DNA from: Sulfurimonadaceae bacterium
GTDB taxonomy: Bacteria > Campylobacterota > Campylobacteria > Campylobacterales > Sulfurimonadaceae
Direction: 5' to 3'
Assembly (NCBI GenBank): GCA_016744575.1
Contig: JADGEC010000016.1
Coordinates: 1 to 42,481, forward strand
Length of the DNA: 42,481 nt
Shown here: positions 1-38,804 of the stretch, one piece after another
How positions within the stretch are numbered: the stretch's first letter is position 1
How the letters are laid out: the number at the start of each line of letters is the position of its first letter
Translations under genes and position numbers: made by a program
The notes under the pieces: model-generated
The model's database searches: none
What the model was told of the DNA's origin: nothing
What the model saw: the letters and a program-made list of their open reading frames with translations, nothing else

Positions 1-110
1 CCCATAGAGTGCTCATACTCCAGCTGCAGTCCCTGATACCGCTCTTCACGCTGGTGAAAAGCTTTGATCTGCTCGCATCTATCTACCAGCGCTCCTTTAA
101 GCATTTCCAT
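1..110 (-). CDS. Unknown protein, N-terminal part only (cut by window edge)
   Basis: The reading frame starts at an ATG whose A is shared with the TGA stop of the upstream ferredoxin gene, so the two are translationally coupled. About 36 codons are visible; they encode a charged, helix-prone stretch beginning MEMLKGALVDRCEQIKAF. The family cannot be recognised. Its place as the last visible gene of the ferredoxin/NifX-like operon suggests a nitrogen-fixation accessory role, but that is inference from context alone. Confidence 0.5.
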   Translation of the reverse strand, partial: MEMLKGALVDRCEQIKAFHQREERYQGLQLEYEHSM

Positions 111-502
111 CAGCCCACCTCTTTATCATCCGGAGCCTCTTCGACCTCTTTTCCAACACCACGACTTTCTGCAGGGATGTCTTTACGGTACTTCTTCTCT
201 CTAAACGACGGTGTCTTGAGTGTTCCGTTCTTAGTCCCAAGCTTATAGAGCTCATCATTCAGGAAATGCTCTTCAAACTCAGTCGTATAAGGCATATCCC
301 AGGTGATGCAGCCGATGCTCGGACAGATGGCCGCACATTGCGGATCATCAAAGATACCGACACACTCGACACACTTCTCCGGTTGGACATAATAACGGCT
401 CTCACCGGTAGGATTGCTCATGTCATCCACGATCGCATCGACCGGACAGTTTTGCAAACAGGCATCACAGGTTATACAGGTATCATCAATGATCACAGAC
501 AT
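110..502 (-). CDS. 4Fe-4S dicluster ferredoxin, nif-cluster type (paralogue 1 of 3)
   Basis: This 130-residue protein is a small electron carrier with two predicted [4Fe-4S] clusters. The first motif is C9-x2-C12-x2-C15-x3-C19-P; the second is C44-x2-C47-x8-C56-x3-C60-P. The long insert between the second and third cysteines of the second motif is typical of the YfhL/Allochromatium-type ferredoxins often found in nif clusters. After about residue 70 comes a charged, unconserved tail of some 60 residues. Two further 130-aa paralogues lie upstream in the same operon (638-1030 and 1449-1841). The likely role is low-potential electron delivery to nitrogenase or to FeMo-cofactor assembly; the redox partner cannot be told from sequence. 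Confidence 0.85.
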   Translation of the reverse strand: MSVIIDDTCITCDACLQNCPVDAIVDDMSNPTGESRYYVQPEKCVECVGIFDDPQCAAICPSIGCITWDMPYTTEFEEHFLNDELYKLGTKNGTLKTPSFREKKYRKDIPAESRGVGKEVEEAPDDKEVG

Positions 503-637
503 ATTCTTTCCTTTTTTTGAACGCTATTTTATTTTTTATCATTCAGACTTGGGTCGACTTTCGGCCATCCATCTGTAGCCTGTCAAAGTCAAGACAAGTG
601 AACACCCTATGAGCTATAGACCAGTCTCTCTTTTCTC

Positions 638-1030
638 TTAGGGATTATAAAGTCTAAGTGTCTCACCGACACTGATGTTCTTTTCACGCTCCGAGAGCGC
701 AACACTTTCTCTATAAGGTCTCGGTGCCACGACTGGGGAGAGGAGACCTTTTTTCTTATGTACACGAAGGACATAATCATTACTTTCTACAAAGTGATGA
801 TTAAAGGGTTCCGTATAGGGCATGTCCCAGATGATGCATCCCTCTGTCGGACAGACATCCGCACATTTTGGGACAGCTGCATCGACACACTCGATGCACT
901 TCTCAGGTTTGACATAGGTGTACTCGCCATTAGCGAGTGGTGAGTCATCTGCGCTGACGATGGCCGTTGCAGGGCACTCCTCTATACATGCATCACAATT
1001 AATACATAGGTCTGTGATCAAGACTGCCAT
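638..1030 (-). CDS. 4Fe-4S dicluster ferredoxin, nif-cluster type (paralogue 2 of 3)
   Basis: This is a 130-residue paralogue of the flanking ferredoxins. Motif one is C9-x2-C12-x2-C15-x3-C19-P and motif two is C45-x2-C48-x7-C56-x3-C60-P, one residue shorter in the loop than its sisters. The segment CPTEGCIIWDMPY after the second motif is shared with paralogue 1, and HKKKGL near residue 90 is shared with paralogue 3, which supports duplication from a common ancestor. A 135-bp gap separates it from the downstream ferredoxin and holds no other gene that I can see. It is predicted to be a cytoplasmic electron carrier. Confidence 0.85.
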   Translation of the reverse strand: MAVLITDLCINCDACIEECPATAIVSADDSPLANGEYTYVKPEKCIECVDAAVPKCADVCPTEGCIIWDMPYTEPFNHHFVESNDYVLRVHKKKGLLSPVVAPRPYRESVALSEREKNISVGETLRLYNP

Positions 1031-1061
1031 CAGCCAGTTCCTCCATCTATTAGATCATCAC

Positions 1062-1439
1062 TCATAAAGGCATACCCCCGGCTTTATAGTAGATGCGTAA
1101 CAACCATGGTGCGGGGTTGTCGTTCAACATCGCCTGGAGCTTGCCTATCGCATCCATGATCTTCTCATCTTCAGCGGCACGCACCGGGTAGATGCCCGCA
1201 GACTGGACCATCTTTGACGCTTTGGGTCCGATCTGTGAACAGTACATGATATCCGCCGCTTCGATACAGCCGATCTTATAGGTTAGTTTCTCGTGCTCCG
1301 CCTCGATCTCCTGCGAACTCCCGATCTCCTCGATCAGGCGGTGACTATCTTTGTCTACATCGTAAAGATAAAAACGCTTGGCCCAGCCAAAATGCTGATC
1401 GATATGTTCACCGTCTTTCGAAGCGAATGCGATATTCAT
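1062..1439 (-). CDS. NifX/NafY-like dinitrogenase cofactor-binding protein
   Basis: The 125-residue protein matches the dinitrogenase iron-molybdenum cofactor biosynthesis family (NifX, NafY and the NifB C-terminal domain). Visible hallmarks are the N-terminal MNIAFASKDGEHIDQHFGWAKRF segment with its conserved HFG, a central beta/alpha core with two cysteines (IGCIEAADIMYCSQIG), and the GIYPVRA strand. Family members bind FeMo-co precursors during nitrogenase cofactor assembly. It sits between two ferredoxin genes in one operon, 9 bp after the upstream ferredoxin. Whether it is NifX itself or a related protein cannot be decided, so no symbol is given. Confidence 0.8.
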   Translation of the reverse strand: MNIAFASKDGEHIDQHFGWAKRFYLYDVDKDSHRLIEEIGSSQEIEAEHEKLTYKIGCIEAADIMYCSQIGPKASKMVQSAGIYPVRAAEDEKIMDAIGKLQAMLNDNPAPWLLRIYYKAGGMPL

Positions 1440-1448
1440 CCGTTTCTC

Positions 1449-1841
1449 CTAGAAAGAGTCTAAGACGTTAGCGCGGGCCTGACGTATATCAAGCGTGATC
1501 TCATCCATAAATGGCTGCGCTTTGACAGTTGGCAGCATCAGCCCTTTTTTCTTATGTTCACGGATCTTATAAGCCCCTGTCTCGTTGCCATCAGCATAAT
1601 AGTCAGTGAAGTCCACTACAAACGGTAAGTCCCAGACGATAGAGCCTTCAGTCGGACAAGCCTCTGCACAACGTGGGGTATCGGCATGACCGACACACTC
1701 CACACATGATTCTGGTTTCACGTAGAAACGCTCTCCCTCATGCGGGTTTCTATCGCTATCATCTGCCAAGATGGCAGCGACCGGGCACTCCGGTGCACAT
1801 GCGTCACAGTTAATACACTCTTCAGTTATCATTACGGCCAT
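1449..1841 (-). CDS. 4Fe-4S dicluster ferredoxin, nif-cluster type (paralogue 3 of 3)
   Basis: This is the third 130-residue ferredoxin of the operon. Motifs are C9-x2-C12-x2-C15-x3-C19-P and C46-x2-C49-x8-C58-x3-C62-P, followed by the family segment CPTEGSIVWDLPF, where the later cysteine of the paralogues has become serine. The C-terminal half carries the HKKKGL element shared with paralogue 2. A predicted low-potential carrier, it directly precedes the NifX-like gene. Exactly equal lengths of all three copies with diverged sequence suggest retained, specialised roles rather than recent redundancy. Confidence 0.85.
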   Translation of the reverse strand: MAVMITEECINCDACAPECPVAAILADDSDRNPHEGERFYVKPESCVECVGHADTPRCAEACPTEGSIVWDLPFVVDFTDYYADGNETGAYKIREHKKKGLMLPTVKAQPFMDEITLDIRQARANVLDSF

Positions 1842-1888
1842 ATTCTCTCTCCTTGATTGTTATAAGTGAGGATTTGCATAAGTCGTTC

Positions 1889-2290
1889 TCAACTTGGTAG
1901 AGCCGGTTCGATATTGATATCGATGCCGCGTAAAAGCATAGTCGCTCGGCATCCAGGCTCCAGTCCCAGGTTCTCATAAGCACTGGAGGTGATCAGTGAG
2001 ACGACACTTCCGACATCACTCTCAAGGGTCAACTCACACAATGAAGCATTTTCACGTACCTCTTTAAGCGTAGCAGGTAAAGCGTTCTCGATGGAGATCT
2101 TTCCCGGGCACTCTTTACTGATGGAGACCGATGCTTCCCTAAAGGTACATGTGATCTTATCTCCTATCTCCAGCCATCCAGGGATCTCCGACTTGATAAG
2201 TCGGATAACAGTATCACCACTGTTCACATATATATAGGAGACTACATCCATTCTTTCGATCACGTCCACCGTTGCGGAGATCTTGTTCAT
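1889..2290 (-). CDS. Two-module molybdate-binding (Mop/TOBE) protein
   Basis: The 133-residue protein consists of two tandem modules of about 65 residues. Each has the beta-rich pattern of molbindin/TOBE domains: N-K-I-S-A-T-V near the start, later SISKECPGKISIENALPATL, then a second module with GSVVSLITSSAYENLGLEPG. ModE C-terminal and Mop proteins with this pattern bind molybdate or tungstate. In this operon it would buffer or sense molybdenum for FeMo-cofactor synthesis. There is no DNA-binding domain, so it is not a full ModE. It lies 12 bp after the NifU-like gene. Confidence 0.65.
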   Translation of the reverse strand: MNKISATVDVIERMDVVSYIYVNSGDTVIRLIKSEIPGWLEIGDKITCTFREASVSISKECPGKISIENALPATLKEVRENASLCELTLESDVGSVVSLITSSAYENLGLEPGCRATMLLRGIDINIEPALPS

Positions 2291-2302
2291 AACGACCCTT
2301 CT

Positions 2303-3196
2303 TTACATCAGATACAAAATGACATTTTTGTCGATCAATGTCTCAAAATGGTCAAGCAACATGTCAGCGGTCGAAGTCGACCCCAGATGACATCCCGAAC
2401 AGGCTCCCAGATAGTTCAGCCACAGCTGCGGTGTCTCGCCAGGAATATAGTTGACCAGTTCAATACCGCCACCATCCACAGCAAGGGTAGGACGGACCTT
2501 CTTCTCTATCATATCCTGTACCAGTGCGATCTGTCGGGCATCGTCAAGCAAACGAAATGGCTCGTTTATCACTGTTTCGACCCCGGCATTCGAGACATAG
2601 GTGATGATCTCCTGTGCCTGAGAGTCATTGTTATGTGCGGCCGTGATGAGATAACGCATAGCATCAGCCATCTTGCCTTCTTGCCTAAATGCCATTCCCG
2701 CTTTTACCTGTGCTTCGACCTGTCCAAGATCAGCTGCACGTTTAAAATAGTCATTTGCCTTCTCAAGGTCGATGTCGCCGCCCATCCCTTTCTCATAATA
2801 GAGTCCAAGACTGTGAAGGGCATGGCTGTTGTCCAGGGCTGCCGCCGCTTCAAACCATGTCAACGCTTCACTATCGTCCTTCTCGCAACCGTTACCCTTC
2901 ATACGCATCAGGGCCAGGTTTACCATTGCCTGAGGGTTGTCAGTCGCATCGTCTTCAAAGAGTCTGTAAGCCTCACTGTATTGCTTAGCCTCATACGCGG
3001 CTATCGCTTTATCGAATGTCGTCATCATCTTCTCTTCTCTCCTTTTATGTTCTTCTAGTCGTTCATAAGCATCGTCTCTGGCTTCCTCAAAAGTGTCACC
3101 GATGCCTTTAATCTCAGGAAAGTCTACGAATACGGCCATACAGCCATCACCATCCTCATTCGAGAACCCATAAAGATCGAGTTCATGATGTGTCAT
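2303..3196 (-). CDS. HicB-like / Sel1-repeat / NifU-like domain fusion protein
   Basis: I place the start at the ATG at 3196, giving 297 residues, because AAGGAG lies 7 bases upstream of it; a GTG at 3214 in the same frame has no comparable site. Three parts are visible. Residues about 1-55 resemble the HicB antitoxin-like fold (AVFVDFPEIKGIGDTFEEA). The middle (about 60-205) has Sel1/TPR-type helical repeats such as ALDNSHALHSLGLYYEKG. The C-terminal 80 residues are a NifU C-terminal-like scaffold (VRPTLAVDGGGIELV, then GACSGCHLGSTSTADML with the CxxC pair). NifU domains of this kind hold transient Fe-S clusters. It heads the ferredoxin/NifX-like operon, so an Fe-S delivery role on a protein-interaction scaffold is plausible. 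The fusion is unusual. Confidence 0.75.
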   Translation of the reverse strand: MTHHELDLYGFSNEDGDGCMAVFVDFPEIKGIGDTFEEARDDAYERLEEHKRREEKMMTTFDKAIAAYEAKQYSEAYRLFEDDATDNPQAMVNLALMRMKGNGCEKDDSEALTWFEAAAALDNSHALHSLGLYYEKGMGGDIDLEKANDYFKRAADLGQVEAQVKAGMAFRQEGKMADAMRYLITAAHNNDSQAQEIITYVSNAGVETVINEPFRLLDDARQIALVQDMIEKKVRPTLAVDGGGIELVNYIPGETPQLWLNYLGACSGCHLGSTSTADMLLDHFETLIDKNVILYLM

Positions 3197-3218
3197 GAGC
3201 AGACTCCTTCTCACCCAG

Positions 3219-3263
3219 GATATGCAAGTGGTGTTCTAGAGCTTAGAACCAATCTTGCATATC
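3219..3263. promoter_or_regulatory. Long inverted repeat between divergent operons
   Basis: Perfect 10-bp arms GATATGCAAG (3219-3228) and CTTGCATATC (3254-3263) enclose inner complementary arms TTCTA (3234-3238) and TAGAA (3244-3248). The element sits between the leftward NifU-like operon and the rightward small gene. It ends 38 bp before the rightward start and begins 23 bp before the leftward start. Position and symmetry fit a shared operator or a hairpin in both leaders. I see no TGGCAC/TTGCA sigma-54 promoter here. Confidence 0.5.
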
Positions 3264-3301
3264 TCCCAGTAGAGATATCTTTATGTAGGAGGGACGCATA
3301 C

Positions 3302-3532
3302 ATGACTGAGACAGTCACCCATGAGATGGAGCAGATCCGGCTGATGATCGCAGATACCGTAGCCAAGCGTAATGTCATCAAGAACGAGATGCAGGAGTGG
3401 TATGACCGTTTTCCAGGTGAACGTTTTGAAAAGACCAGAGAACTTATCGTCATCGACAACGTACTCTCAGAACTTGATTCTCACTATAAACAGCTTTGGG
3501 ATTTTCATAACAGTCCAATAGAAAGCGCTTGA
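3302..3532 (+). CDS. Small helical protein of a nif-type cluster, unknown
   Basis: This encodes 76 residues from the ATG at 3302, preceded by AGGAGGG at suitable spacing; the in-frame upstream extension has no such site. The protein is almost wholly alpha-helical and charged, consistent with a two-helix hairpin (IADTVAKRNVIKNEMQEW, then ELIVIDNVLSELDSHYKQL). Its size, fold and context resemble the small NifX-associated helical proteins (DUF683 type), but similarity is only by pattern and I do not claim the family. It is divergent from the NifU-like operon across a 45-bp inverted repeat. Confidence 0.6.
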   Translation: MTETVTHEMEQIRLMIADTVAKRNVIKNEMQEWYDRFPGERFEKTRELIVIDNVLSELDSHYKQLWDFHNSPIESA

Positions 3533-3807
3533 TGGCAGAGGCGTATCGTACCAAGGGCAGACTCGTAAGTGATGCCAGACACGTCCAACAGTACCGTCCC
3601 TATCCTTGAGAAAGACAATTTCCAAGCAGATGAACCGCACTGGCGTCGTATCAGTAAGAACACGATCAGTCTGTTTCAGGTCCTCATCGACCTGGTCTAC
3701 AGCGTCTAGCGATGACTAAGGAGATGGTGACTATAAAGTTTCAGAAGATATTAAATAATGAAGCAGAGGACCGGGATGCCGTTCTTGACATCCTCTATAT
3801 GAACTAA
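3532..3807 (+). pseudogene. Short overlapping frames, possible remnant of one gene
   Basis: Between two intact genes lie three short frames: 3532-3609 (25 aa, ATG overlapping the previous TGA), 3572-3709 (45 aa, ending FQVLIDLVYSV) and 3712-3807 (31 aa, beginning MTKEMVTIKFQKIL). The first and third are in one frame and the second in another. Together they would make about 90 residues if two frameshifts were repaired. No family is recognised. They could also be independent microproteins; only the first has an obvious coupling to the preceding gene. Confidence 0.35.
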
Positions 3808-3834
3808 GACAAACACATACATAAAGGAGAACAG

Positions 3835-4344
3835 ATGGATACTGATATGATAAGAGCTAAACTGATAAAGCATGCGCGAAACGCATTTGAGACAGCCTGT
3901 ACACTACGAGACGATGAACGCATAGAGGTCTATCTGCATGAAGAAGTCCCAAAGATCTCTGATGTACTCAATGAGAGTGATAATATCGTCTATGGCCCAA
4001 ACCGACAGCTTTGCTACCAGGTCTATGGCCATGACTATCTCGAAGAAGAGATAGTCACGTGGATAGACTACGCCCGAGTCATCAAGCAACCCACTGATGA
4101 GGCTCCGATGCCCGAACCGACCGACATCGAGATCTCCATCCGCGAACTCATCGACGAGATCGCACAGAAGCTTGGCGCTCCTCGTGACGTCATCAACTCC
4201 TATGAGGTCTTCGCAAATCTGCCTATGGACCTGCTAGGGACTATAGAACAGAAGATCATCGAGTACTGGTGGAACGGTGATGCCGAAGAAAATGGAAAGA
4301 TACTTGCCACTGCGCAGATCGATGAGGCACTGGAAGCACTATAG
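3835..4344 (+). CDS. Conserved-looking cytoplasmic protein of unknown function
   Basis: A 169-residue acidic, soluble protein starts at an ATG preceded by AAGGAG. There is no signal peptide or membrane segment. A helical N-terminal part (DMIRAKLIKHARNAFETA) is followed by a tyrosine-rich stretch (NRQLCYQVYGHDYLEEEIVTW) and, after a proline-rich linker near residue 90, a helical C-terminal half. I do not recognise the family. It is the last rightward gene before the decayed region and may belong to the nif-type accessory set by position. The stop codon lies at the start of a perfect 14-bp palindrome (4343-4356). Confidence 0.6.
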   Translation: MDTDMIRAKLIKHARNAFETACTLRDDERIEVYLHEEVPKISDVLNESDNIVYGPNRQLCYQVYGHDYLEEEIVTWIDYARVIKQPTDEAPMPEPTDIEISIRELIDEIAQKLGAPRDVINSYEVFANLPMDLLGTIEQKIIEYWWNGDAEENGKILATAQIDEALEAL

Positions 4345-4730
4345 ACTAGCTAGTCTGGCAATATCCATGATCCTATAAGAACCACTGTTCAGCATTGATG
4401 TGATAACCGTATGCCTTGTGCTATATAGTTTACGAATGAAACTCCAACCGACCCAAGGGTCGGGGAATTACTCCCAAAAAGATTAAAAAACATACTACCC
4501 ACTGCACTATTTGCTGTGTAGAAAAAAATTCAAATGGAAGTGGCTTACAATATAAGTGGTCTTGATGGAATCGATAGTGAAGTTGAGCCAAACAAGTATC
4601 TGCCTTTTCACTATTTGCGAGAAAAGCTGTTCGAATCATTCAAATCGTAGATATATGTAGCACCTTTGAACAAACTCTTTTTCATCACAATAAAAAGAAA
4701 TAGGTAAATAGGTAAAAAACATATTTTTTA
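4345..4730. other. Gene-poor stretch between nif-type cluster and first repeat
   Basis: This segment holds no convincing gene. It contains the palindrome AGACTAGCTAGTCT at 4343-4356 and a GC-rich hairpin (CCGACC, loop CAAG, GGTCGG; about 4448-4463) with no T-run. A 38-codon frame at 4534-4650 begins MEVAYNISGLDGID and has no clear ribosome-binding site. The composition is AT-rich towards 4730. It reads like eroded DNA next to an integration site. Confidence 0.5.
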
Positions 4731-4878
4731 GTGGGCATTTAGCTGGAAAAAGATGCCCGTATTCGGCCCATTTGTTGTCGCTTGTGGGCATATTAAACTC
4801 TCTAAGTCCCTATAAATAGAGCTTATACCTTCGCTGGTAGCGTCGAGGTCAGCGGTTCGATCCCGCTATGCTCCACCA
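4731..4878 (+). repeat. 148-bp direct repeat, copy 1, ending in tRNA-Ala 3' end
   Basis: This copy and 6940-7087 have the same length and differ at about 7 positions by eye; homology stops at the terminal CCA. Within the repeat, GTGGGCAT occurs twice (4731, 4784) with its inverse ATGCCC between (4753). A TATAAATA-centred imperfect hairpin lies near 4806-4823. The last 37 bases match the 3' half of a tRNA-Ala gene. The likely meaning is the conserved end of an integrative element plus its attachment core. Confidence 0.8.
4842..4878 (+). pseudogene. tRNA-Ala 3' fragment (candidate att core)
   Basis: The fragment carries GAGGTC, the T-arm AGCGG-TTCGATC-CCGCT, the 3' acceptor strand ATGCTCC, discriminator A and encoded CCA. 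This is the usual 3' end of bacterial tRNA-Ala. The required 5' acceptor strand GGAGCAT, D-arm and anticodon arm are absent upstream, so it is not a functional tRNA. Fragments of this kind are left where integrases recombine at tRNA 3' ends. Confidence 0.75.
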
Positions 4879-4904
4879 CGTCAAATAGGCACTTTCAAGC
4901 CCTT

Positions 4905-5157
4905 TTAGAAATCCCATTTTTTTCTACTGTCACCATAATCGAATGATGCTGTATCTATTTCCAAGTGCTCTTCACCTATAGAACCACTATATGTAGTCAT
5001 ATCCTGCTCTTTATACTCTTTCAGTAAAGTTGTAATACTGGACTTGGTCAGCAATAGCATTGAAAAACTTTGTACTCCAGATATCCAAAGATAAAGGGTA
5101 TAAGTCTTCTTGACGATCAGGCTCAATAGGTTGTGAGACATTTATCACATTGGTCAT
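4905..5157 (-). pseudogene. Small unknown gene with probable frameshift
   Basis: Two leftward frames appear to continue each other. One begins at the ATG at 5157 (MTNVINVSQPIEPDRQEDL) and ends in a stop after NFTERV. The other supplies KEQDMTTYSGSIGEEHLEID and ends at 4905. Joining them at about 5010-5020 needs a single frameshift and gives some 83 residues of protein-like composition. No good ribosome-binding site precedes the ATG, which lies 21 bp after the ATPase stop. The family is unknown, and it may be the eroded end of a larger gene. Confidence 0.35.
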
Positions 5158-5177
5158 CAAGGATAAAGGCCAACCTA

Positions 5178-6383
5178 TCACTTGACAAACCCAAACAACC
5201 ACAACGGTACTCTGTTCTCAAATCCGACCTCGATGTCATCAGACACGACATAGCTATCAGGTATATCTTTTATCTGCTCAAACCCTTTGTTCTTACCGCC
5301 TATCTCCACCGTATATCTCTCGTCTATCAACATATCACCTTTGTCCACATAGTTCAAAGTGTGTCGACTTCCAAGCATACTGGCAAAATAGGTCTCTCTG
5401 ATAGTCCCTTTATCACTTTGCAAACAGAGTGCTCCAAACAGGTTGGTATTGGCTAAATAGAGCTTATCTGGTTTACGGATCGCTTTGAAACGTTTTGCCT
5501 CATGACTGATATGGCGTATGAGCTCGGCACGTGAGAGATACTCTATGTACTTGTAAAGTGTGGCTTTGGTGATGCCAACTGTTGTCGCCAACTTATCAAT
5601 GGAAAGCTCCAAGGGTTTTGAGACGCAGATGGTCAATAGCAGTTTTTTAAGCGTATCGATCTTATCTGGCTGGATATTGAAGATCTTGCCCAGATCGGTG
5701 TGCAGAATAGTGTTGATGGTCTCATGGATACGATCAGTGTATTTCGTCTTGTCCTCAAAGTAGAACGGGTACACACCGACTCCTATGAACTCATCAAAAT
5801 ACTTTAGGATCGTCTTGTCTTTCAATCCATCAAACACTTCATGGACGATGCTCTCATGATCGTTTAGTATCTCTTCGAGACTATACAGACTCAAAGAGAC
5901 GTCTTGGACCAACTCCAGATACTCTTTGAAAGACAAGATACTGAGATTATACATAGAATAACGTCGAGCAAAGTCGGCATTGGTGATCTCGATGGCACTG
6001 GAGCCTGAGAAGTAGATCTTGATGTCGAGAAAGTCATAGATGGATTTGAGTTGGGCCTGAAAGTCGTTAGCCTCATGTATCTCATCGATGACGATCAGCT
6101 CGCCGCCTCTTTTCCTAAACTCATCGACAAACTCAAAAAGCGACACATCCTGAAACATTGGATGATCACATGATATATAAAGTTTATTGGAGGGTTTGAC
6201 AGTACTGACTTTTAAAAGCTGCAGCAGCAGCGTTGTCTTACCCACACCACGACTACCATAGACACCGACTATCTTACTTGTCGACTTCTGAATGTCATCA
6301 TAAAGATAGCGTTTATACTCCGGCAAGGTCTGAGCCTGCTTTAAAAGATAGAGTCTTTTTGCACTTTCCAATACTTTTTGCAA
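5178..6383 (-). CDS. Orphan AAA+ ATPase (ATP-binding protein, DUF4143-type)
   Basis: A 401-residue protein starts at TTG (6381-6383) behind AAGGA. Walker A is GSRGVGKTT near residue 45 and Walker B is ELIVIDEIH near residue 95, followed by a sensor-like FSGSSAIEI. The C-terminal half carries a winged-helix-like region (LATTVGITKATLYKYIEYLSR) and a DUF4143-style nuclease-like end (YTVEIGGKNKGFEQI). Such ATPases are common, patchily distributed and of unclear function, and are often found on mobile DNA. It is the only intact gene between the two tRNA-Ala-ended repeats. A perfect 22-bp palindrome immediately upstream suggests repression or autoregulation. Confidence 0.8.
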   Translation of the reverse strand: MQKVLESAKRLYLLKQAQTLPEYKRYLYDDIQKSTSKIVGVYGSRGVGKTTLLLQLLKVSTVKPSNKLYISCDHPMFQDVSLFEFVDEFRKRGGELIVIDEIHEANDFQAQLKSIYDFLDIKIYFSGSSAIEITNADFARRYSMYNLSILSFKEYLELVQDVSLSLYSLEEILNDHESIVHEVFDGLKDKTILKYFDEFIGVGVYPFYFEDKTKYTDRIHETINTILHTDLGKIFNIQPDKIDTLKKLLLTICVSKPLELSIDKLATTVGITKATLYKYIEYLSRAELIRHISHEAKRFKAIRKPDKLYLANTNLFGALCLQSDKGTIRETYFASMLGSRHTLNYVDKGDMLIDERYTVEIGGKNKGFEQIKDIPDSYVVSDDIEVGFENRVPLWLFGFVK

Positions 6384-6395
6384 GAGAATATCCTT

Positions 6396-6417
6396 TTAGT
6401 TTAATGCATTAAACTAA
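6396..6417. promoter_or_regulatory. Perfect 22-bp palindrome, probable operator of the ATPase gene
   Basis: The half-site TTAGTTTAATG is followed directly by its exact reverse complement. It ends 13 bp before the TTG start and abuts the ribosome-binding site. A protein bound here would block transcription or translation initiation of the ATPase. The winged-helix-like segment of the ATPase makes autoregulation possible, which is inference. Confidence 0.6.
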
Positions 6418-6939
6418 TATTCTATCAATAAGTATCTTATACTGTACTATATAGCTCATCATCTATATAATAGAAAAGCCGTCAAAGCAATTTTGATGAT
6501 TCCAATAGTACTTTGTTCTTCAAAAGTGAACTCAAGATACTCACTGCTCTACCCCGATCATCACGCCTCTAACATCATCACACTCTCTCTTTGTGATAGT
6601 TCCACCATGACAGGCTTCCTTCCTGACTTTCTTGATGGTGCAGATGGCATTTTTCAACTCAAACTTCAGAAGGTTCAAAAGTGAGGCGTGTTTTCGGTTA
6701 TCATTAAAATGGTATCAATATTTTGTCAGACAAGTATATCTGGGCGTCCTAAACGTTTTTGGGAAACGCCTCTAGTCGACTTTCTAGAATTGGTTCCCCA
6801 TGCTATTTCATTGAAAGCACCTAAAACGACAGATACAAATAGTATTTCTGCAGTTTTATCAAGAATCTACTATCAAAAAATAATTTGAAAAATTAGTTGG
6901 TGCTGTTTACTATGAGAAAAGAAAGAATGTGTTTTTTGA
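6418..6939. other. Gene-poor stretch upstream of the ATPase
   Basis: No intact gene is recognised in these 520 bases. Short leftward frames with basic, glycine/arginine-rich peptides occur (PSRKSGRKPVMVELSQ near 6590-6640; VSQKRLGRPDILV near 6720-6770). They look like fragments of a DNA-binding protein or transposase, but too little remains to name one. The part next to 6420 is AT-rich and probably holds the ATPase promoter. Confidence 0.4.
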
Positions 6940-7087
6940 GTGGGCATTTAGCTGAAAAAAGATGCCCGTATTCGGCCCATTTATTGTCGCTTGTGGGCAT
7001 ATTGATCTCTGTAAGCCCCTATAAATAGGGCTTATACCTTCGCTGGTAGCGTCGAGGTCAGCGGTTCGATCCCGCTATGCTCCACCA
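6940..7087 (+). repeat. 148-bp direct repeat, copy 2, ending in tRNA-Ala 3' end
   Basis: This is the second copy of the repeat at 4731-4878, offset by 2209 bp. It shows the same GTGGGCAT / ATGCCC / GTGGGCAT arrangement and the same tRNA-Ala 3' end. In this copy the internal hairpin around 7013-7033 is stronger (AAGCCC pairs with GGGCTT). Sequences outside the repeat are unrelated to those flanking copy 1. Confidence 0.8.
7051..7087 (+). pseudogene. tRNA-Ala 3' fragment (second candidate att core)
   Basis: It is identical over 37 bases to the fragment at 4842-4878, from GTCGAGGTC to the final CCA. It lacks the 5' half of the tRNA. Beyond it the sequence is unique, which makes this the outer right boundary of the putative integrated DNA. 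Confidence 0.75.
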
Positions 7088-7277
7088 TCCACTCAACAAG
7101 CACCGCGCCTCAACGACTATTGACATTCTCACATCCCACTCAATTCGTTCTATCAAGATATAGTAATACGGATTTTCTCAACATTGTGATCGACCCAACG
7201 ATACTGATCAGAACTAAGTCCTAAAGTAGGTCTATCCCCTATCTCTCCAAAGAGTCCATTGTCCAAAGACTTTTCAG

Positions 7278-7568
7278 CTAAGTCGTGAGGTGCAAGTAGC
7301 TCGAGAAAAATAGCTGTCTTGATCTTTCAGGGCATCATGACACACTCACAAGACAATGCTCTAAATCTGCTTTCCAGATCACTATAGCTTCTTAACTCTC
7401 CCAAAAAGAGAGGAAGAGAAGCTTATGTTCATGTACCAGTGATGAGAATCGCTCTATCAAAACAAAATCCTCCATCTTCACTAATCGATCTTTTGACCTT
7501 GCTGCTATCGCTAATTACTCTTTTTCTCCTGTCTATTCGACTTCTACATCAAAGATCACTGCATACAT
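7278..7568 (-). pseudogene. Antibiotic-biosynthesis-monooxygenase (ABM) family pseudogene
   Basis: From an ATG at 7568 with an upstream AGGGAG, one continuous frame of 96 codons follows the ABM (heme-oxygenase-like ferredoxin fold) pattern. It starts MYAVIFDVEVE, has LAIAARSKDRLVKMEDFVLI in the middle, then RFSSLVHEHKLLFLSFWES, then EAIVIWKADLEH near the end. The frame is broken by four in-frame stops (TAG after EVE, TAA after GEKE, TAA after FWES, TGA after LVSVS) with no frameshift. Intact family members are small dimeric oxidoreductases of about 100 residues, matching the length here. The 125 bases beyond it (7153-7277) hold an open frame of uncertain meaning. Confidence 0.7.
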
Positions 7569-8086
7569 GTCACTCCCTTTTGATCTTATAGCCTCTTTCA
7601 AAAGAGGACCAATACCATCAGGTCATATTTGGTGTAAGTATCTGATCTAAACAGGTCTCAAAGACTTCCGCCTCATCTCATGGAGGAGTACGATCAAGTA
7701 GATATTGACCTTGAGTATCTCCCACTATTGACTCACCTAGCTCTACTTAAGTGAAAATACTAACCGATATTAAGCTAATAAGTCCAAAATAGTCTCTTCT
7801 AATTCTTATATAATAGGTCTGATATCTGACATCAAATGCATAAAAACCCTCTTTTGACTCCAAGAATCATGAAACTTTTCTTAAAATAGAGCGAAAAAAG
7901 CACTTTTATAATTAATACTTATGATAAATTGGACTATACGGGCAGAATCATAAGATAAGCGAATGAATATTCATGCTTTTATGTTTCATAACGAAACAAA
8001 TGGCACTTTTAAGGTTCTATCTTACGTCATTTTTTTTAAAATATGTTAAACTGATTGAAACCAGACTAAGTCAAAAAGGGGTTGTC
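7569..8086. promoter_or_regulatory. Upstream region of the hydrogenase operon
   Basis: This stretch has no recognisable gene. A near-palindrome lies at 7957-7978: AAGC, two unpaired bases, the perfect 12-bp palindrome ATGAATATTCAT (7963-7974), then GCTT. It sits about 110 bp before hydA and is a plausible operator or hairpin in the hyd leader. Poly-A/T runs around 7885-7920 and 8030-8045 fit a promoter zone. The hydA ribosome-binding site is AAGGGG at 8076-8081. Confidence 0.4.
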
Positions 8087-9223
8087 ATGAACGGTTTTGA
8101 TGCGCTCTACAGTAAGGCAGAAGAACGGATACGGATACTATCCGAACTGCCTTCTACAAAAAATAAGACCATTGAAAAGTTGCTGGAGGAAAAAGGCGTC
8201 CAACGGCGAGATTTTATGAAATGGGCTGCAAGTATCACCGCGATGCTTGCTTTACCTTCACAGTTCACACCGCTGTTCGCTGACGTTGCGAAGCTAGCGG
8301 ATCGTCTGCCATTGATATGGCTTCATATGGCTGAATGTACAGGATGTAGCGAATCGCTGATTCGATCAGATGCTCCTACAGTCGATTCTCTCATATTTGA
8401 GCACATCTCCTTGGAGTATCATGAGACATTGATGGCTGCAGCAGGTTGGCAGGCAGAAGAGATACTTGATGGTGCCATGCATAAATACAAAGGCAAATAT
8501 ATCCTTCTTGTAGAAGGTGGTGTCCCGACTGCGATGGACGGACAGTACCTTACATTAGGGCCACAAGCTAAGACAGGACTGAGTGTCGTGACTGAAGCCG
8601 CGAAAGATGCAGCAGCCATATTCTCTATTGGTACCTGCTCAAGTTTTGGTGGTATTCAGGCGGCAGCTCCAAATCCTACCGGTGCGAAGGGTGTGGATAA
8701 AGTCGTCAAACAACCAGTCATCAATGTCCCAGGTTGTCCACCAAGTGCCAAGAACATCGTCGGTACGCTGATGCACTTCTTACTGTTTGGTACTTTACCA
8801 GCGCTAGATCGCTACAGCCGTCCAAAATGGGCATATGGAAATCGTATTCACGATCTTTGTGAACGTCGTGGTCACTTCGATGCTGGAGAATTTGTCGAAT
8901 CTTTTGGAGATGAAGGTGCAAAAGCCGGATGGTGTCTCTATAAGCAAGGGTGTAAAGGTCCTTATACCTTTAACAACTGTTCGATAGAACGCTTTAATCA
9001 GCATACGCACTGGCCAGTCGGTGCCGGACACGGATGTATGGGATGTAGTGAACCGGACTTCTGGGACACTATGGGTCCTCTCGAACAACCACTGGACTCA
9101 CATCTGGTAATGGGATTGAACTCGACTGTGGATAAAGTCGGTACAACACTTGTCACAGCGACTGTGATAGGTATCGGTGCGCATGCTGTCGCTAGTCTAT
9201 TTATGAATAAGAAAGAAGGGTAA
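8087..9223 (+). CDS. hydA: [NiFe] hydrogenase small subunit, Tat-exported
   Basis: The ATG at 8087 with AAGGGG upstream gives 378 residues. A Tat signal (R40-R41-D-F-M-K followed by a hydrophobic stretch to about residue 65) exports the folded enzyme. The Fe-S binding cysteines begin with C84-T-G-C87 (proximal cluster), continue with GTCSSFGG and PGCPP, and end with the medial/distal ligands around LCERRGHF, WCLYKQGCKGP and GCMGCSEPDFWD. A C-terminal hydrophobic helix (TLVTATVIGIGAHAVASLF) anchors it in the membrane. It passes electrons from the NiFe site in HydB to cytochrome b HydC. Order and sequence type match group 1b uptake hydrogenase of Wolinella. The hydB gene starts 3 bp later. Confidence 0.96.
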   Translation: MNGFDALYSKAEERIRILSELPSTKNKTIEKLLEEKGVQRRDFMKWAASITAMLALPSQFTPLFADVAKLADRLPLIWLHMAECTGCSESLIRSDAPTVDSLIFEHISLEYHETLMAAAGWQAEEILDGAMHKYKGKYILLVEGGVPTAMDGQYLTLGPQAKTGLSVVTEAAKDAAAIFSIGTCSSFGGIQAAAPNPTGAKGVDKVVKQPVINVPGCPPSAKNIVGTLMHFLLFGTLPALDRYSRPKWAYGNRIHDLCERRGHFDAGEFVESFGDEGAKAGWCLYKQGCKGPYTFNNCSIERFNQHTHWPVGAGHGCMGCSEPDFWDTMGPLEQPLDSHLVMGLNSTVDKVGTTLVTATVIGIGAHAVASLFMNKKEG

Positions 9224-9226
9224 GTC

Positions 9227-10948
9227 ATGGCCAACAAACGTGTAGTCATCGATCCGATAACACGGATCGAAGGACATCTAAGAGTAGAAGTCGAAGTCGA
9301 TGAGAACAATGTAGTACAAAAAGCCTACTCCTCATCGACACTATGGCGTGGTATAGAACTTATCCTAAAGGGCCGTGACCCTCGTGATGCCGGACTGATG
9401 GCACAGCGTATATGTGGTGTCTGTACTTATTCACACTATAGAGCAGGTGTCGAAGCTGTCGAAGACGCTTTAGGCGTCGAGCCTCCATATAACGCGAAGC
9501 TTGTAAGATCGATCTTGAACGAGTCTCTTTATATGCATGACCATATCGTTCATTTCTATCATCTACATGGTCTAGACTGGGTCGATGTGGTCTCTGCATT
9601 GAGTGCTGACCCTAAGAAAGCTTCAGAGCTGGCATTCAAATATTCTGACCTGCCTATCTCCACCGGTACAGCTGAGCTCATGGCTGTACAACAGCGGGTA
9701 AAAGGCTTTGTCGAAAAAGGTCAACTTGGGCCATTTGCTAATGCTTATTGGGGTAATAAGACCTATAAGTTCTCTCCGGAACAGAACCTTATTGCACTAT
9801 CACACTATCTTAAAGCACTGGAAGTCCAGCGTACGGCAGCACAGATGTTTGCTATCTTTGGTGCGAAACAACCGCACCCACAAAGTCTTGTCGTCGGTGG
9901 TATCACCAGTGTCATGGATGTATTGAGTCCAGCACGTCTGTCTGAGTGGCTGACAAAATATAAAATAGTAAAAGATTTCATCGACCGAGCCTATTATGCT
10001 GATATCGTGATGGCAGCTGAGGCATTTGGTACCGAAGAGAGCGTCCTTGGTGGACTTGGTGTCAAAAACTTCCTCTCTGGTGAGTCTATGATGCTTAACC
10101 GTACTGAGAACCTTTTCGAAAGTGGTTACATCAAAGATGGAGACCTCTCAAAGGTCTATGATATCGATGAGTCCCTGATCGATGAGGACGTGACACACGC
10201 ATGGTATGAAGGTGAGAAGCCGCTTAAACCATATGATGGTGAGACGGTCCCTAACTATACTGGTTTCGTCGATGGTGATACTGTCAATGGAAAAGCCAAG
10301 ATCCTTGATGAGAAAGCCAAGTATAGCTGGGTAAAAGCACCTCGCTACGATAAAGAAGCGTTTGAGGTCGGACCACTTTCAAACCTGCTGGTCAATTACG
10401 CTCGTGGTAATGAGAAAGTCATAAAAGCTGTCGGAGACTTCCTTGAAAGAACAGGACTGCCTGTCGGTGCACTCTTTACCACTTTAGGACGTACGGCGGC
10501 AAGGATGTTGCAGGTCAAGCTTATCTCGGATAATGCGATCATCACATTTAATTCACTGGTCGAGAACATCAAGACAGATCAGAGTACTTATACCAAGTTC
10601 GAGATCGATCCGAACAAAGAGTATAAAGGTAGGTTCATCGGTGAAGTACCACGTGGTACGCTTAGTCACTGGGTACGTATCAAGAACGGTCTGATCGAGA
10701 ACTATCAGGCAGTCGTACCAACGACCTGGAATGCTGGACCGATCGACGCCAATGGTGTCGTTGGGCCATATGAAGCATCACTTGTCGGACTAAAACTGGA
10801 AGATCCAAAGAAACCACTTGAAGTGCTGAGGATCATTCACTCTTTTGACCCTTGTATGGCATGTTCTGTCCACGTGATGGATATGAAAGGTACTGAGATC
10901 AGTGAGTTTAAAGTCAGTGTAGCCGATGGCGGTGCTTGTTCAGTCTGA
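9227..10948 (+). CDS. hydB: [NiFe] hydrogenase large (catalytic) subunit
   Basis: A 573-residue protein binds the NiFe(CN)2CO active site that oxidises H2 in the periplasm. The nickel ligands are visible as R61-I-C63-G-V-C66 near the N-terminus and D541-P-C543-M-A-C546-S-V-H549 near the C-terminus. The 24 residues after H549 form the extension removed by the maturation protease, encoded two genes downstream. There is no signal peptide, as expected, since the subunit is co-exported with HydA. The intergenic region after the stop contains a long stem-loop. Confidence 0.97.
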   Translation: MANKRVVIDPITRIEGHLRVEVEVDENNVVQKAYSSSTLWRGIELILKGRDPRDAGLMAQRICGVCTYSHYRAGVEAVEDALGVEPPYNAKLVRSILNESLYMHDHIVHFYHLHGLDWVDVVSALSADPKKASELAFKYSDLPISTGTAELMAVQQRVKGFVEKGQLGPFANAYWGNKTYKFSPEQNLIALSHYLKALEVQRTAAQMFAIFGAKQPHPQSLVVGGITSVMDVLSPARLSEWLTKYKIVKDFIDRAYYADIVMAAEAFGTEESVLGGLGVKNFLSGESMMLNRTENLFESGYIKDGDLSKVYDIDESLIDEDVTHAWYEGEKPLKPYDGETVPNYTGFVDGDTVNGKAKILDEKAKYSWVKAPRYDKEAFEVGPLSNLLVNYARGNEKVIKAVGDFLERTGLPVGALFTTLGRTAARMLQVKLISDNAIITFNSLVENIKTDQSTYTKFEIDPNKEYKGRFIGEVPRGTLSHWVRIKNGLIENYQAVVPTTWNAGPIDANGVVGPYEASLVGLKLEDPKKPLEVLRIIHSFDPCMACSVHVMDMKGTEISEFKVSVADGGACSV

Positions 10949-10992
10949 TCTTCTGGGACCGGGCCGAGTCTTGGAAGATATAGTCATCAGAC
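10943..10992 (+). promoter_or_regulatory. Stem-loop between hydB and hydC
   Basis: Arms GTCTGAT (10943-10949) and ATCAGAC (10986-10992) enclose a second pair, ATCTTC (10948-10953) and GAAGAT (10974-10979), with a GC-rich loop. The hydB stop codon is inside the left arm. There is no T-run, so it is more likely an RNA-stability or processing element that sets hydAB to hydC ratios than a terminator. Confidence 0.5.
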
Positions 10993-11033
10993 CGTGCCCA
11001 AATAATTAGAATTCAAAAGTAGGAGAATAGACT

Positions 11034-11732
11034 ATGAACAATCCTGATACACAGATCGTTGATCACCCTACGTTTGTCTACAGTAGTATGAATAGGATCT
11101 TGCATTGGCTCAGAGCGGTGGTCATCACCGGACTGACCATAACCGGTTTTTATATCGCAAGCCCGTTCCTTTCACCAGAAGGCTCTACAGACAAATTACT
11201 CTTCGCCGAATGGGCGATGTGGCATTACATCTTTGGTTTTATCTTATTGACAGCCGGTTTACTTCGTATCTACCTTTTCTTTTTTGGAAAAGATAGTAAA
11301 GGTGAACTGGACTCAGTAAAAGACGTGTTGAGTGTAAGATCATGGACCACTCAACTGAAGTCTTACTTCTTTGTAGGTGAGCTTCAAAAGAAAGGTATTT
11401 ATGGACCTCTACAGTTCATCACATACGTGATGATCATGTTACTGGTCATCGTAGCATCCGTGACGGGCTTAGTCCTCTATGTGCATGTCTACCATCTAGG
11501 TATTGGTGGATTATTATATGATCCGATGCGAGCCATCGAGGCATGGATGGGAGGTCTTGCAATGGTACGTTATGTACATCATATAACGATGTGGGGCTTT
11601 TTGATATTTATCCCTATCCATGTCTATCTTGTGATCTGGTCAGCTATCCGCTTTAAACATGGTGCTCTCGATGTCATGTTTACCGGATATGACTACCATC
11701 TTAAAAAAGAGAAAGAGCAGGATCAGGCTTAA
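11034..11732 (+). CDS. hydC: Hydrogenase cytochrome b subunit
   Basis: A 232-residue integral membrane protein of the Ni/Fe-hydrogenase b-type cytochrome family. Four hydrophobic helices are evident (about residues 22-45, 62-85, 128-152, 178-205), with histidines placed as in diheme b cytochromes (ILHWLRAVV, MWHYIFGF, YVHVYHLGIG, YVHHITMWGF). It anchors HydAB and carries electrons to menaquinone. The ribosome-binding site is TAGGAGAAT. The stop codon overlaps the start of hydD by one base (TAATG). Confidence 0.95.
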   Translation: MNNPDTQIVDHPTFVYSSMNRILHWLRAVVITGLTITGFYIASPFLSPEGSTDKLLFAEWAMWHYIFGFILLTAGLLRIYLFFFGKDSKGELDSVKDVLSVRSWTTQLKSYFFVGELQKKGIYGPLQFITYVMIMLLVIVASVTGLVLYVHVYHLGIGGLLYDPMRAIEAWMGGLAMVRYVHHITMWGFLIFIPIHVYLVIWSAIRFKHGALDVMFTGYDYHLKKEKEQDQA

Positions 11733-12280
11733 TGCGAATATTACTATTAGGTATTGGTAACCTTCTTTTTGGTGACGAAGGTATCGGTGTCCATTTTATT
11801 AGCTATCTTGGAAAAAAGTACCGTTTTGATGGTGAGAACGAGTTGAGCATCATCGATGGAGGGACTCTGGCACAACACCTTATCCCTTTGATCGTAGAGT
11901 ATGACCAAATGATCATTATAGATACGATCAATGCCCCTGGTGTCAAAGCCGGAGAAGTCTACTTTTTCGATTTTGAAGCAGTCCCAGATGTCGTAGACTG
12001 GCAGGGAAGTGCTCATGAAGTCGAGATGTTACAGACATTGACCATGATGGACCTCGTTGGAGATCGACCGCCTACCATGATATTAGGTGTAGTGCCTACT
12101 GTGATCGAGGCTACGGAGTTCTCACTCTCCAGTGGTGTGTATGATGCTGTAGACGTTATGGAGAAGACACTCTTAAGACATCTCAGCTCTTTAGGGATCG
12201 AAGCGATCCAACAAAAAGAGTTAGACATCAAAGAGATACTACCTGATACATTCCGGACTGCAGATGCATATAGCCTTTAA
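11732..12280 (+). CDS. hydD: Hydrogenase maturation endopeptidase
   Basis: A 182-residue cytoplasmic protease of the HyaD/HybD/HupD family, which removes the C-terminal peptide of the large subunit after nickel insertion. The N-terminal motif GIGNLLFGDEGIGVHFI carries the conserved metal-contacting acidic residue. A second conserved region, IIIDTINAPG, and the histidine in SAHEVEMLQTL complete the Ni-probing site. It starts at an ATG overlapping the hydC stop, which implies coupling. Its substrate is expected to be HydB (cleavage after H549). Confidence 0.95.
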   Translation: MRILLLGIGNLLFGDEGIGVHFISYLGKKYRFDGENELSIIDGGTLAQHLIPLIVEYDQMIIIDTINAPGVKAGEVYFFDFEAVPDVVDWQGSAHEVEMLQTLTMMDLVGDRPPTMILGVVPTVIEATEFSLSSGVYDAVDVMEKTLLRHLSSLGIEAIQQKELDIKEILPDTFRTADAYSL

Positions 12281-14060
12281 ATTCGAATATGTCCACGATA
12301 ACGGACTGTTCGACAGACTTTTACTGCGTTTGGAAGAACTATCTACTATCGAGATCGCACTTCACAAAGATGATACCCACTATACTATAGAAGCTACAGG
12401 TGAACAAAAAGAGTTAGAGCAGTTGGCTGAGACAGTCTCCTCCACGATACCTAACTCTCTCTTCCTGAAAGGCTATGCCATCGAAGAGCTCGAGACGCGC
12501 ACCACTGATCTATCGAAGCCAATCGATGAGAGTACGTATTTTGAAGTGCCTTATTGTCCTGAATGTCATGTTGAAGTCATCAAGACACTTGACCCATTTG
12601 TGCCGTGTAAGGTGTGTGGGTCCAGTGATACAAATCTCTCTTTTAAATCACTAAACAGCTCTACCGGTCTAGAGGAGGAAGATGCTCCGGCATTGATCAC
12701 ACATCTTGCTGATATATTGATAGAAAAGCGTGAGATCACCATCGAGACCCATAATGGAAAACGGACATTCTCACTGTTAGAGAGTAAGAGTTCTTCAGAA
12801 CAGGGTATCCTTATCTGTGATCCTTCTGATCTCTCCTCTTCATTTGTGATCACAAAAGGTGAACTCGATGCCTTGATGATGATCGAGAGACCAAGCGTCC
12901 GTTTAAGAGCAAAACTGATGTTCAGATCTCAATATGAGATGCATAAAGCCTTCTATCCTGTGTTCTTTGCCGATGATAAGGTCACCTTGGCCTTGAGTGA
13001 GGTCTTAAGACGTAAGGGGATAAAGGCTGTCTATGCTGATGCTATCCCAACACTTCGTGTGGCATCGACCATGGAACAGCATCTCATCATCGATGATGGT
13101 AGGGATATGTTACCATGGAGACATCCTATGTCATTGGATTCACCTTTCCTGTGTAGACTTCAAGGCATAGAGGCTGACGGTGGCGACGATGGTCTTATCG
13201 TTCAGAGACAGAGTTCAAACAGAAAAGGTTCCTATCTTCTTTTTGCAGAAAAAAATGATAGACAAGCTCCAAGTACCGCTATTCGTTTTGAACGAGGTCA
13301 TGCAGCATTACGTTCGATAGTCCTCGAAAACGACCTTGCAGGGAACTCTTTATGCGGTATCTATCTAAGTCGCAGGAATGATTCCCAAATATGTAGTTTT
13401 TCAAAAAAAATAGGCTATACGACTATGGTAGATATCGCGCAGACCATCCCTTTGCGTCCAGAAGAGATACTTGAAGCTATCGCAGAGATGGACGAAAGTG
13501 GTGCACGTCTTATCGAAAACTATAAAAAGACACTTCCTGAACTAGCTGAGAGGATCGAGAAAATGTCTTTTGATGAGGATGAGACTGCCTCAGTCATCGT
13601 TAGGACATGGGCCAATGCTGCGGCTATCATAGGACTTTATGAAGGAAGTGATCTATATGAAGCCTTCTCAAGTCTAGAAGCTACCGCAATAGAGTTCAAC
13701 GGGAAGTCAGGACCAAGGATCGATCATAAGGTGACCAGTACGAAGTATGGTTATGGACTGGATATGTTTTCAGCGATACGATCAGCTATTAGCTTTAAGC
13801 TCGCTGGCGTAGATGAATACCTTATAAGCTTTGGTTTTATTGATTCCCTGGCAGACTTTATAGCCTTACAAGCCGAATCAGCTGATGCGAATATCGGTAT
13901 CGATGGTGTGACACTAAGTGGAGATCTCTTTGAGAACCGACAGTTGATGATGCGTGCATATAATGCTATCAGTGCAAACTTTCCTATCTATAGGAATCAG
14001 CGACTAGGGACAGATGGTCCCAATATCGCAGTCGGAGCGATCACACTCGGCAGCGAGTGA
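12264..14060 (+). CDS. hydE: HypF-related hydrogenase accessory protein HydE
   Basis: A 598-residue protein overlaps hydD by 17 bp. The central and C-terminal parts resemble the carbamoyltransferase (Kae1-like) half of HypF. A zinc-finger-like pair CPEC...CKVC lies near residues 97-118. The N-terminal acylphosphatase domain and complete YrdC region of genuine HypF are not evident. Wolinella succinogenes has such a gene as the fifth gene of hydABCDE, and that name is used here by synteny. HypF makes the thiocarboxamide precursor of the CN ligands; whether HydE retains this activity or assists assembly otherwise is not known from sequence. Confidence 0.8.
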   Translation: MHIAFKFEYVHDNGLFDRLLLRLEELSTIEIALHKDDTHYTIEATGEQKELEQLAETVSSTIPNSLFLKGYAIEELETRTTDLSKPIDESTYFEVPYCPECHVEVIKTLDPFVPCKVCGSSDTNLSFKSLNSSTGLEEEDAPALITHLADILIEKREITIETHNGKRTFSLLESKSSSEQGILICDPSDLSSSFVITKGELDALMMIERPSVRLRAKLMFRSQYEMHKAFYPVFFADDKVTLALSEVLRRKGIKAVYADAIPTLRVASTMEQHLIIDDGRDMLPWRHPMSLDSPFLCRLQGIEADGGDDGLIVQRQSSNRKGSYLLFAEKNDRQAPSTAIRFERGHAALRSIVLENDLAGNSLCGIYLSRRNDSQICSFSKKIGYTTMVDIAQTIPLRPEEILEAIAEMDESGARLIENYKKTLPELAERIEKMSFDEDETASVIVRTWANAAAIIGLYEGSDLYEAFSSLEATAIEFNGKSGPRIDHKVTSTKYGYGLDMFSAIRSAISFKLAGVDEYLISFGFIDSLADFIALQAESADANIGIDGVTLSGDLFENRQLMMRAYNAISANFPIYRNQRLGTDGPNIAVGAITLGSE

Positions 14061-14145
14061 TCCTCTTTAGATGATTACCTCTATTGGAGCATGTTCAGGC
14101 TGCTATGAGTCCTGAATAGCTTCGATGTCACGACTATACAACTAC

Positions 14146-14637
14146 TCAAAACGGCATCTTCCCCATGACTACATCGTCATGATTCACATAACGGTCACAT
14201 CTTGAACCACCCAGATCCTGACAGACTTTTTGCCATTTAGCAGAGTGCCCATCACTTTTTTGCACAAACGATCCTCTCTTAAACATCAGAGCATGGGCAT
14301 ATTCATGAGCGATGACATCATCAAGGATATACTGCAGACTCTCTCTCATCGCTTTTTTATTCAGATATATGCTTATCTGTCCATTATCGTAGGCTGTGAC
14401 TCCATAACTTTTACCAGGAAGCTCATCAGTGATGATCAGGGGGATATTAAGTGCAAAGCCATAATGTCTTTGCATGCGCTGTAGGACTTCTGACTCTTTC
14501 TCTACTATCAACTGTCTGTACTCATCTGGTATCGGACTGGAATCAAATAGATGACTTTGATACCAATTGTATGAGAGAACAGCTACTGATAGTATTGTCA
14601 TCGTAAGAAAGATGATCTCTAGCTTTTTTTTAAACAT
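14146..14637 (-). CDS. Membrane-anchored SprT-like zinc metalloprotein
   Basis: The 163-residue protein has an N-terminal hydrophobic segment (residues about 8-24, IIFLTMTILSVAVLSY), then a SprT-like fold. The zinc-site signature H111-E-Y-A-H115 and a probable third ligand in G-H131-S-A-K-W are visible; E112 would be the catalytic base. SprT-like proteins are usually cytoplasmic DNA-protein-crosslink proteases, so the membrane anchor points to a periplasmic peptidase variant. It is the distal end of a run of small leftward genes. Confidence 0.7.
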   Translation of the reverse strand: MFKKKLEIIFLTMTILSVAVLSYNWYQSHLFDSSPIPDEYRQLIVEKESEVLQRMQRHYGFALNIPLIITDELPGKSYGVTAYDNGQISIYLNKKAMRESLQYILDDVIAHEYAHALMFKRGSFVQKSDGHSAKWQKVCQDLGGSRCDRYVNHDDVVMGKMPF

Positions 14638-14697
14638 ATCACAGTCCCTATCACTCTGCTACTGTAGAGATAATAGTAAAAGGGTATCGTTTGAAGA

Positions 14698-14883: not shown

Positions 14884-14921
14884 AGAGCCTCCTTTTTATG
14901 CTTTATATGACGTATGAGACA

Positions 14922-22481: not shown

Positions 22482-22523
22482 CAATCATGACTCTTGATTA
22501 AATGACATTGAAGGAGAGCAGCG

Positions 22524-38802: not shown

Positions 38803-38804
38803 TT

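Follow-up and report, generated by a model that had tools for sequence, protein, structure and literature searches.

Tandem repeats beside a nif cluster in a Sulfurimonadaceae genome are probably serial attachment scars of tyrosine-integrase elements at tRNA-Ala(GGC)

The stretch of DNA analyzed here (the window; 42,481 nucleotides) is contig C202 of a Sulfurimonadaceae genome (G000), whose 3.59-Mb assembly consists of 228 contigs. Positions 1 to 4344 of the window held the right end of a nif cluster, with ferredoxins, Nitro_FeMo-Co, TOBE, and Sel1-NifU genes and a last conserved ORF at 3835 to 4344. This last conserved nif gene stopped at 4344, a tyrosine integrase remnant started within a few bases of it, and the sequence that followed it was different in each genome compared. 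Farther right lay two direct repeats, here called scars A and B, with an ATPase gene between them.

The direct repeats (4724 to 4878 and 6933 to 7087) were 95% identical over 155 bp when a T-run was included and measured 148 bp without it (scar A, 4731 to 4878; scar B, 6940 to 7087; both on the plus strand), with a spacing of 2,209 bp. The copies differed at 8 of the 155 positions, 7 of them inside the 148 bp, and all mismatches fell in the upstream part. In contrast, the last 47 nt (4832 to 4878 in scar A and 7041 to 7087 in scar B, plus strand) were 100% the same; they corresponded to the 3' part of tRNA-Ala(GGC) from the anticodon loop to the CCA, at which both repeats terminated. The sequences beyond the CCA had no significant similarity to each other. 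The preliminary description, made from the letters of the window, had reported two equal repeats of about 95% identity that ended at a tRNA-Ala CCA with unrelated sequence past them, and the alignment confirmed each of these points. It had also proposed looking for further copies of the element end; the upstream part of the repeat occurred at only two places in the whole 3.59-Mb genome, scars A and B, and was absent from 40 relatives. There were zero exact 22-mer matches to the repeat in IMG/VR and GTDB contigs, and the matches found in IMG/VR, GTDB contigs, and plasmids were to tRNA 3' halves only.

ARAGORN called no complete tRNA in the window. The intact tRNA-Ala gene that the preliminary description had suggested searching for was found on another contig: the single intact tRNA-Ala(GGC) of the genome was located at G000:C217:15498-15573(-), and the third genomic copy of the 47-nt part lay inside it, with 46 of 47 nt (98%) matching the scars. 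The only base that differed over the 47 nt changed the anticodon from GGC in the intact tRNA to GGT in the scars. A chance origin of the repeats is excluded, because the BLAST E value was 2e-65 between the two copies and 1.6e-16 between scar and intact tRNA. The anticodon stem-loop of the intact tRNA was CGACG-CTGGCAG-CGTCG and that of the scars was CTTCG-CTGGTAG-CGTCG, in which the left stem was foreign and the right stem host-like. The left half of the scar stem was probably derived from the element, because the tRNA-Ala stem-loop of some relatives was CTTCG-CTGGCAG-CGAAG. The hybrid stem would place the crossover in the anticodon loop, and we infer that strand exchange occurred there between the resident gene and an attP derived from a different tRNA-Ala allele. 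Anticodon-loop sites are a recognized class, and tandem islands have been catalogued (Islander, PMC4383910).

As to integrases, the preliminary description was wrong in stating that none was visible, since a profile search revealed remnants at two positions. The sequence at 4348 to 4425 (minus strand) reads RKLYSTRHTVITSMLNSGSYRIMDIARL (...YSTRHTVITSMLNSGSYRIMDIARL..., with the conserved TRH) and was a tyrosine integrase remnant truncated at the end of the nif cluster. It matched a profile of 24 family integrases with an E value of 7e-11 and scored highest among 4,722 translated tiles, which covered about 120 kb of the window and three other contigs. The second-best place in the tile scan was 4905 to 5000 (minus strand; MTTYSGSIGEEHLEIDTASF...WDF*), which scored 8.6 bits, a value that is weak alone. 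This sequence was on the expected strand and at the place predicted for the element's integrase end, with its stop codon 27 bp beyond scar A, and only 2 of 200 shuffles were as good a match as its DNA to the corresponding integrase end of genome G086. Thus, 4905 to 5000 is probably a second integrase remnant. No integrase remnant was found to the right of scar B. Together with a few-codon stub by the intact tRNA, described below, the strong match at 4348 to 4425 and the weakly scoring one at 4905 to 5000 made up the integrase remains of the elements.

Every element here was incomplete. The left unit had shrunk to about 4348 to 4878, and the right unit (4879 to 7087) was a 2.2-kb remnant that coincided with the ATPase segment proposed in the preliminary description as the right element. 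Its only good ORF (5178 to 6383, minus strand) encoded a 401-aa ATPase of the AAA_14/DUF4143 type, which matched candidate-defense models (PDC-S01) in PADLOC; near the end of contig C172 was a similar ATPase sequence (77% over 149 bp), indicating at least one paralog of this family. No relaxase or conjugation genes were found among the ORFs scanned. In the left unit, 41 bp (4449 to 4489) matched the closest genome at 85 to 88%, close to where two of its small contigs end, and may be an insertion-sequence end inside the element remnant.

The closest genome, the sister MAG G001 of the same genus (its contig is that of the Sulfurimonadaceae MAG CSMAG_2541), also had this tRNA-Ala(GGC); an integrase ORF (YNTRHSFITEML..., YNTRHSFITEMLNRGAMPVLDLAKFVG...) pointed at it and stopped 37 bp beyond its CCA. 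In the genome of the window, the sequence that follows the intact tRNA aligned with that of the sister for about 70 bp, including the last integrase codons, and then diverged toward a molybdopterin oxidoreductase gene. Because this stub remains by the intact tRNA, an element with such an integrase probably once stood there and has since had its integrase deleted. A 71-aa integrase query had relatives in 61 of 399 genomes of the order. A tRNA or tmRNA was close to the C-terminal end of the integrase at 24 of the 30 best integrase loci, and 4 of these RNA genes were tRNA-Ala(GGC); the integrase family is tied to tRNA 3' ends. The preliminary description had raised the possibility of a non-autonomous element family, which is not supported: one integrase remnant lay left of scar A and another probably inside the ATPase unit, and other genomes had intact integrases adjacent to this tRNA. 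The elements are decayed and retain integrase remnants, and therefore the term "non-autonomous" is unneeded. Another integrase of this genome (L042 on contig C72, about 2519 to 3958) was close to tRNA-Leu(CAA) and marks a probable further tRNA-targeted element.

We also looked for an empty site and compared the right flank of the window with the tRNA-Ala neighborhoods of relatives. No empty site was found: the sister contigs broke off at both relevant places, one at the tRNA side (8701) and the other at the ortholog of position 15282 of the window, and other genera had different neighbors around the tRNA-Ala site. Only in G027 were genes of the 27.4- to 34.9-kb part of the window located about 6 to 12 kb from tRNA-Ala, in inverted order, and this synteny was left out of the evidence.

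The upstream parts of the scars also contained short motifs. The sequence ATGCCCGTATTCGGCCCA, in which GCCC is repeated at 11 bp, was present at 4753 to 4770 in scar A and at 6962 to 6979 in scar B (plus strand), and we regard it as a pair of candidate arm-type sites. Of its 18 positions, 15 agreed with a pair of sites next to the integrase of the sister, a similarity that about 2% of shuffles equaled, and the arm-type reading of the GCCC motifs is no more than suggestive. The inverted repeat AAGCCCCTATAAATAGGGCTT lay just upstream of the crossover in scar B (7013 to 7033, plus strand) and was degraded in its scar A counterpart (4804 to 4824). Comparable inverted repeats were found at the same place in the scars of G086 and G372.

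A parallel array was identified in G086, a complete genome from another family. An intact 359-aa integrase stood beside its tRNA-Ala(GGC) (C1:2010849-2010924), and a 45-nt tRNA 3' fragment 5.5 kb farther on was directly followed by a second integrase remnant. The G086 array resembled the scars in its integrase family, tRNA, and crossover region, as well as in having an inverted repeat upstream of the crossover, paired arm-like motifs, and an integrase remnant after the fragment. In particular, the inverted repeat upstream of its fragment (CCCTATTTTAGGG) was similar to that of scar B (GCCCCTATAAATAGGGC). The G086 array differed from the window in that the first integrase was intact, the cargo (as read from ORFs) consisted of IS21-like and other transposase genes, and the motifs near both element ends were TGTACCC pairs 12 bp apart rather than GCCC.

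The array also had counterparts among known systems. The Islander catalog includes 3,760 islands that have 3' fragments, 2,083 anticodon-centered sites, and 125 tandems of at least two islands (PMC4383910). Like those islands, the array in the window involved a regenerated tRNA, same-orientation displaced 3' fragments, a tyrosine integrase, a crossover of the anticodon-loop class, and a tandem arrangement; unlike them, its integrases were decayed and it was split over several contigs. A filter that needs an integrase gene and a fragment for each array member would likely miss it. The nif islands of Pseudomonas stutzeri likewise have flanking repeats and no features of mobilizable islands, but they lie between cobS and gshP, whereas the border repeats here were tRNA-Ala 3' fragments (PMC4174501). 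Partial tRNA copies have also been described as tRNA gene fragments left behind by integrated mobile elements (PMC9897764); in contrast to those, the fragments in the window were not called as tRNAs by ARAGORN.

The intact tRNA and the scars were connected by a chain of contigs (C217-C74-C94-window). The nifU gene was broken in two, with one part at the end of C74 and the other at the start of C217 (positions 3 to 139 and 149 to 288 of the 290-position profile), C94 and C74 shared an exact 99-bp overlap, and C94 and the window were joined by an 82-bp dovetail that was 94% identical and not exact. The complete genomes G177 and G415 had the same nif gene order, with the ortholog of window 3835 to 4344 as the last gene. 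The contig overlaps, the split nifU, and this synteny therefore placed the intact tRNA and scar A on either side of the nif cluster, about 59 kb apart (15.5 + 20.8 + 18.2 + 4.7 kb). By the same chain, the 47 nt displaced in the scars were intact elsewhere on the same chromosome, and the scars were downstream of the tRNA on the same strand, with the 94% overlap as one of the joins. The 59 kb held nifA, nifU, rpoN, nifEN, modA, modB, an ABC ATPase gene, nifKDH, nifB, a homocitrate-synthase-like gene, nifS, and others. At L052 on C94 (2861 to 6297), clpX, clpP, and a SIR2_2-domain gene were located inside the nif cluster, in a place that was kept in three genera; the SIR2_2-domain gene had a weak LmuA match in PADLOC.

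Taken together, these results led us to conclude, with a probability of about 0.9, that the repeats are right-hand attachment (attR) sites of tyrosine-integrase elements that integrated serially into tRNA-Ala(GGC) by means of an integrase family widespread in Campylobacterales. The tRNA match, the integrase remnants, the sister integrase, and the G086 parallel all upheld the earlier proposal of serial attachment scars at a tRNA-Ala 3' end. The tyrosine integrase of these related elements would target the single tRNA-Ala(GGC), with strand exchange in the anticodon loop. With every insertion, the tRNA would be rebuilt and its former 3' half (47 nt) pushed to the distal end of the element, where it would come to lie beside the element's own end of about 100 bp. 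Read in the direction of the tRNA, the array would begin with the intact tRNA-Ala and its integrase stub and continue through the stretch of about 59 kb with the nif cluster. The left element (an integrase fragment, about 300 bp, and scar A) would follow, and then the 2.2-kb right element, with its decayed integrase and ATPase gene, closing in scar B. Integrase decay and deletions would have come after the serial integrations, and the junction between the nif cluster end and the left integrase remnant would have arisen by a deletion or rearrangement; we infer this order of events from the layout. The locus adds a case to a known class of events, one for which the tRNA gene, the integrase remains, and an intact parallel have been identified. 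It explains the repeats and provides examples from Campylobacterales of elements accreting at tRNA-Ala(GGC). Arrays of tRNA fragments with decayed integrases are easily overlooked, yet they are readable in fragmented genomes.

A very different explanation is that the repeats are not attachment scars and instead encode a tRNA-like noncoding RNA, either tmRNA-like or an interrupted tRNA-Ala. The 5' end of the repeat (GTGGGCATTTAGCTG) was similar to that of the tRNA and could form base pairs with the 3' acceptor strand, copy B folded with an acceptor-like closing helix (z, -2.5), and copy A had a weak tmRNA match. However, that match scored 13.4 bits against an Rfam gathering threshold of 47 bits, ARAGORN called no such gene, and the fold of copy A was barely above shuffles (z, -1.2); on these grounds, a tmRNA or tRNA-like RNA gene was rejected. 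Moreover, the differences between the copies disrupted the copy B helices, and the layout was explained by the integrase remnants and the parallel array, which leaves the RNA reading very improbable. The likeness of the first 20 bp of the repeat (GTGGGCATTTAGCT) to the tRNA 5' end (GTGGGGCATTAGCT) may be read as an overlap with a GGGCAT arm-like motif.

The attachment-scar reading of the repeats leaves two accounts of how the nif cluster came to its position. The stretch of about 59 kb may be an island, in which the nif genes were the cargo of a tRNA-Ala-targeting element whose integrase survives only as the stub and whose right att site was lost in the deletion at 4345. Consistent with this account, the cluster lay between the intact tRNA with its stub and scar A, nif had a patchy distribution (above the cut-off in 23 of 80 relatives), and tRNA-Ala was not adjacent to nif in complete genome G010 or in the examined nif regions of G177 and G415. 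The sister MAG, with its integrase directly at the tRNA, had no nifD, but this absence rests on a MAG that is only 83% complete. Against an island, the gene order was kept across the family at other locations, NifD was 88 to 94% identical within the family versus 79 to 82% outside it, the GC content (47 to 49%) equaled that of the core side of C217 (47.4%), and no mobility genes were seen. Because the order was conserved, NifD was typical of the family, and the GC content was core-like, there was no sign of a distant donor, and a distant foreign origin of nif was not supported by the last two of these observations. The island account is somewhat less likely than not. Alternatively, the nif genes were native elsewhere and were moved beside the tRNA-Ala array by a chromosomal rearrangement at 4345, with the scars unrelated to them. 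The family-conserved cluster and its native composition fit this account, as does the position of the breakpoint, which coincides precisely with where the last conserved nif gene stops and falls within an integrase remnant. On the other hand, chance breakpoints between the tRNA stub and the array are needed, whereas insertion at the tRNA explains the position. We give the rearrangement account nearly even odds. The integrase remnant at the nif boundary itself suggests either a deletion that joined the nif end to the left element or a rearrangement. As for the earlier suggestion that the left element may include the nif genes, their location between the tRNA and scar A stood, given the contig chain. 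That they are element content is less certain: the gene order was common to family members without an adjacent tRNA-Ala, the GC content was core-like, and the remnant at 4348 to 4425 stood between the nif cluster and scar A. It seems unlikely that a complete nif superoperon of about 50 kb, including a NifA, an RpoN, and a molybdate transporter of its own, moves among Sulfurimonadaceae as cargo of tRNA-Ala(GGC) elements; if it did, such a mobile superoperon would account for the patchy nitrogen fixation in this family. The array provides a concrete site for tracing gain and loss of the whole nif cluster in close strains.

Several features of the surrounding window were also observed. The region from 7088 to 15282 contained NiFe hydrogenase genes and maturation protease, HypF-like, and SprT-like genes; it had no DNA match in the sister MAG, and synteny with the sister began at 15282. 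The GC content fell from 47.8% (1 to 4344) to 40.2% (15283 to 42481) across the scar region, although much of the latter stretch was 87 to 89% identical to the sister MAG. Sequences at about 22382 to 22511 and at 25174 to 25332 matched many sister contigs at 74 to 94% and probably represent dispersed repeat families of the genus. Finally, tandemly duplicated genes were found at 36875 to 40766, where three repeat families recurred with a period of about 1.96 kb and were about 75% identical.
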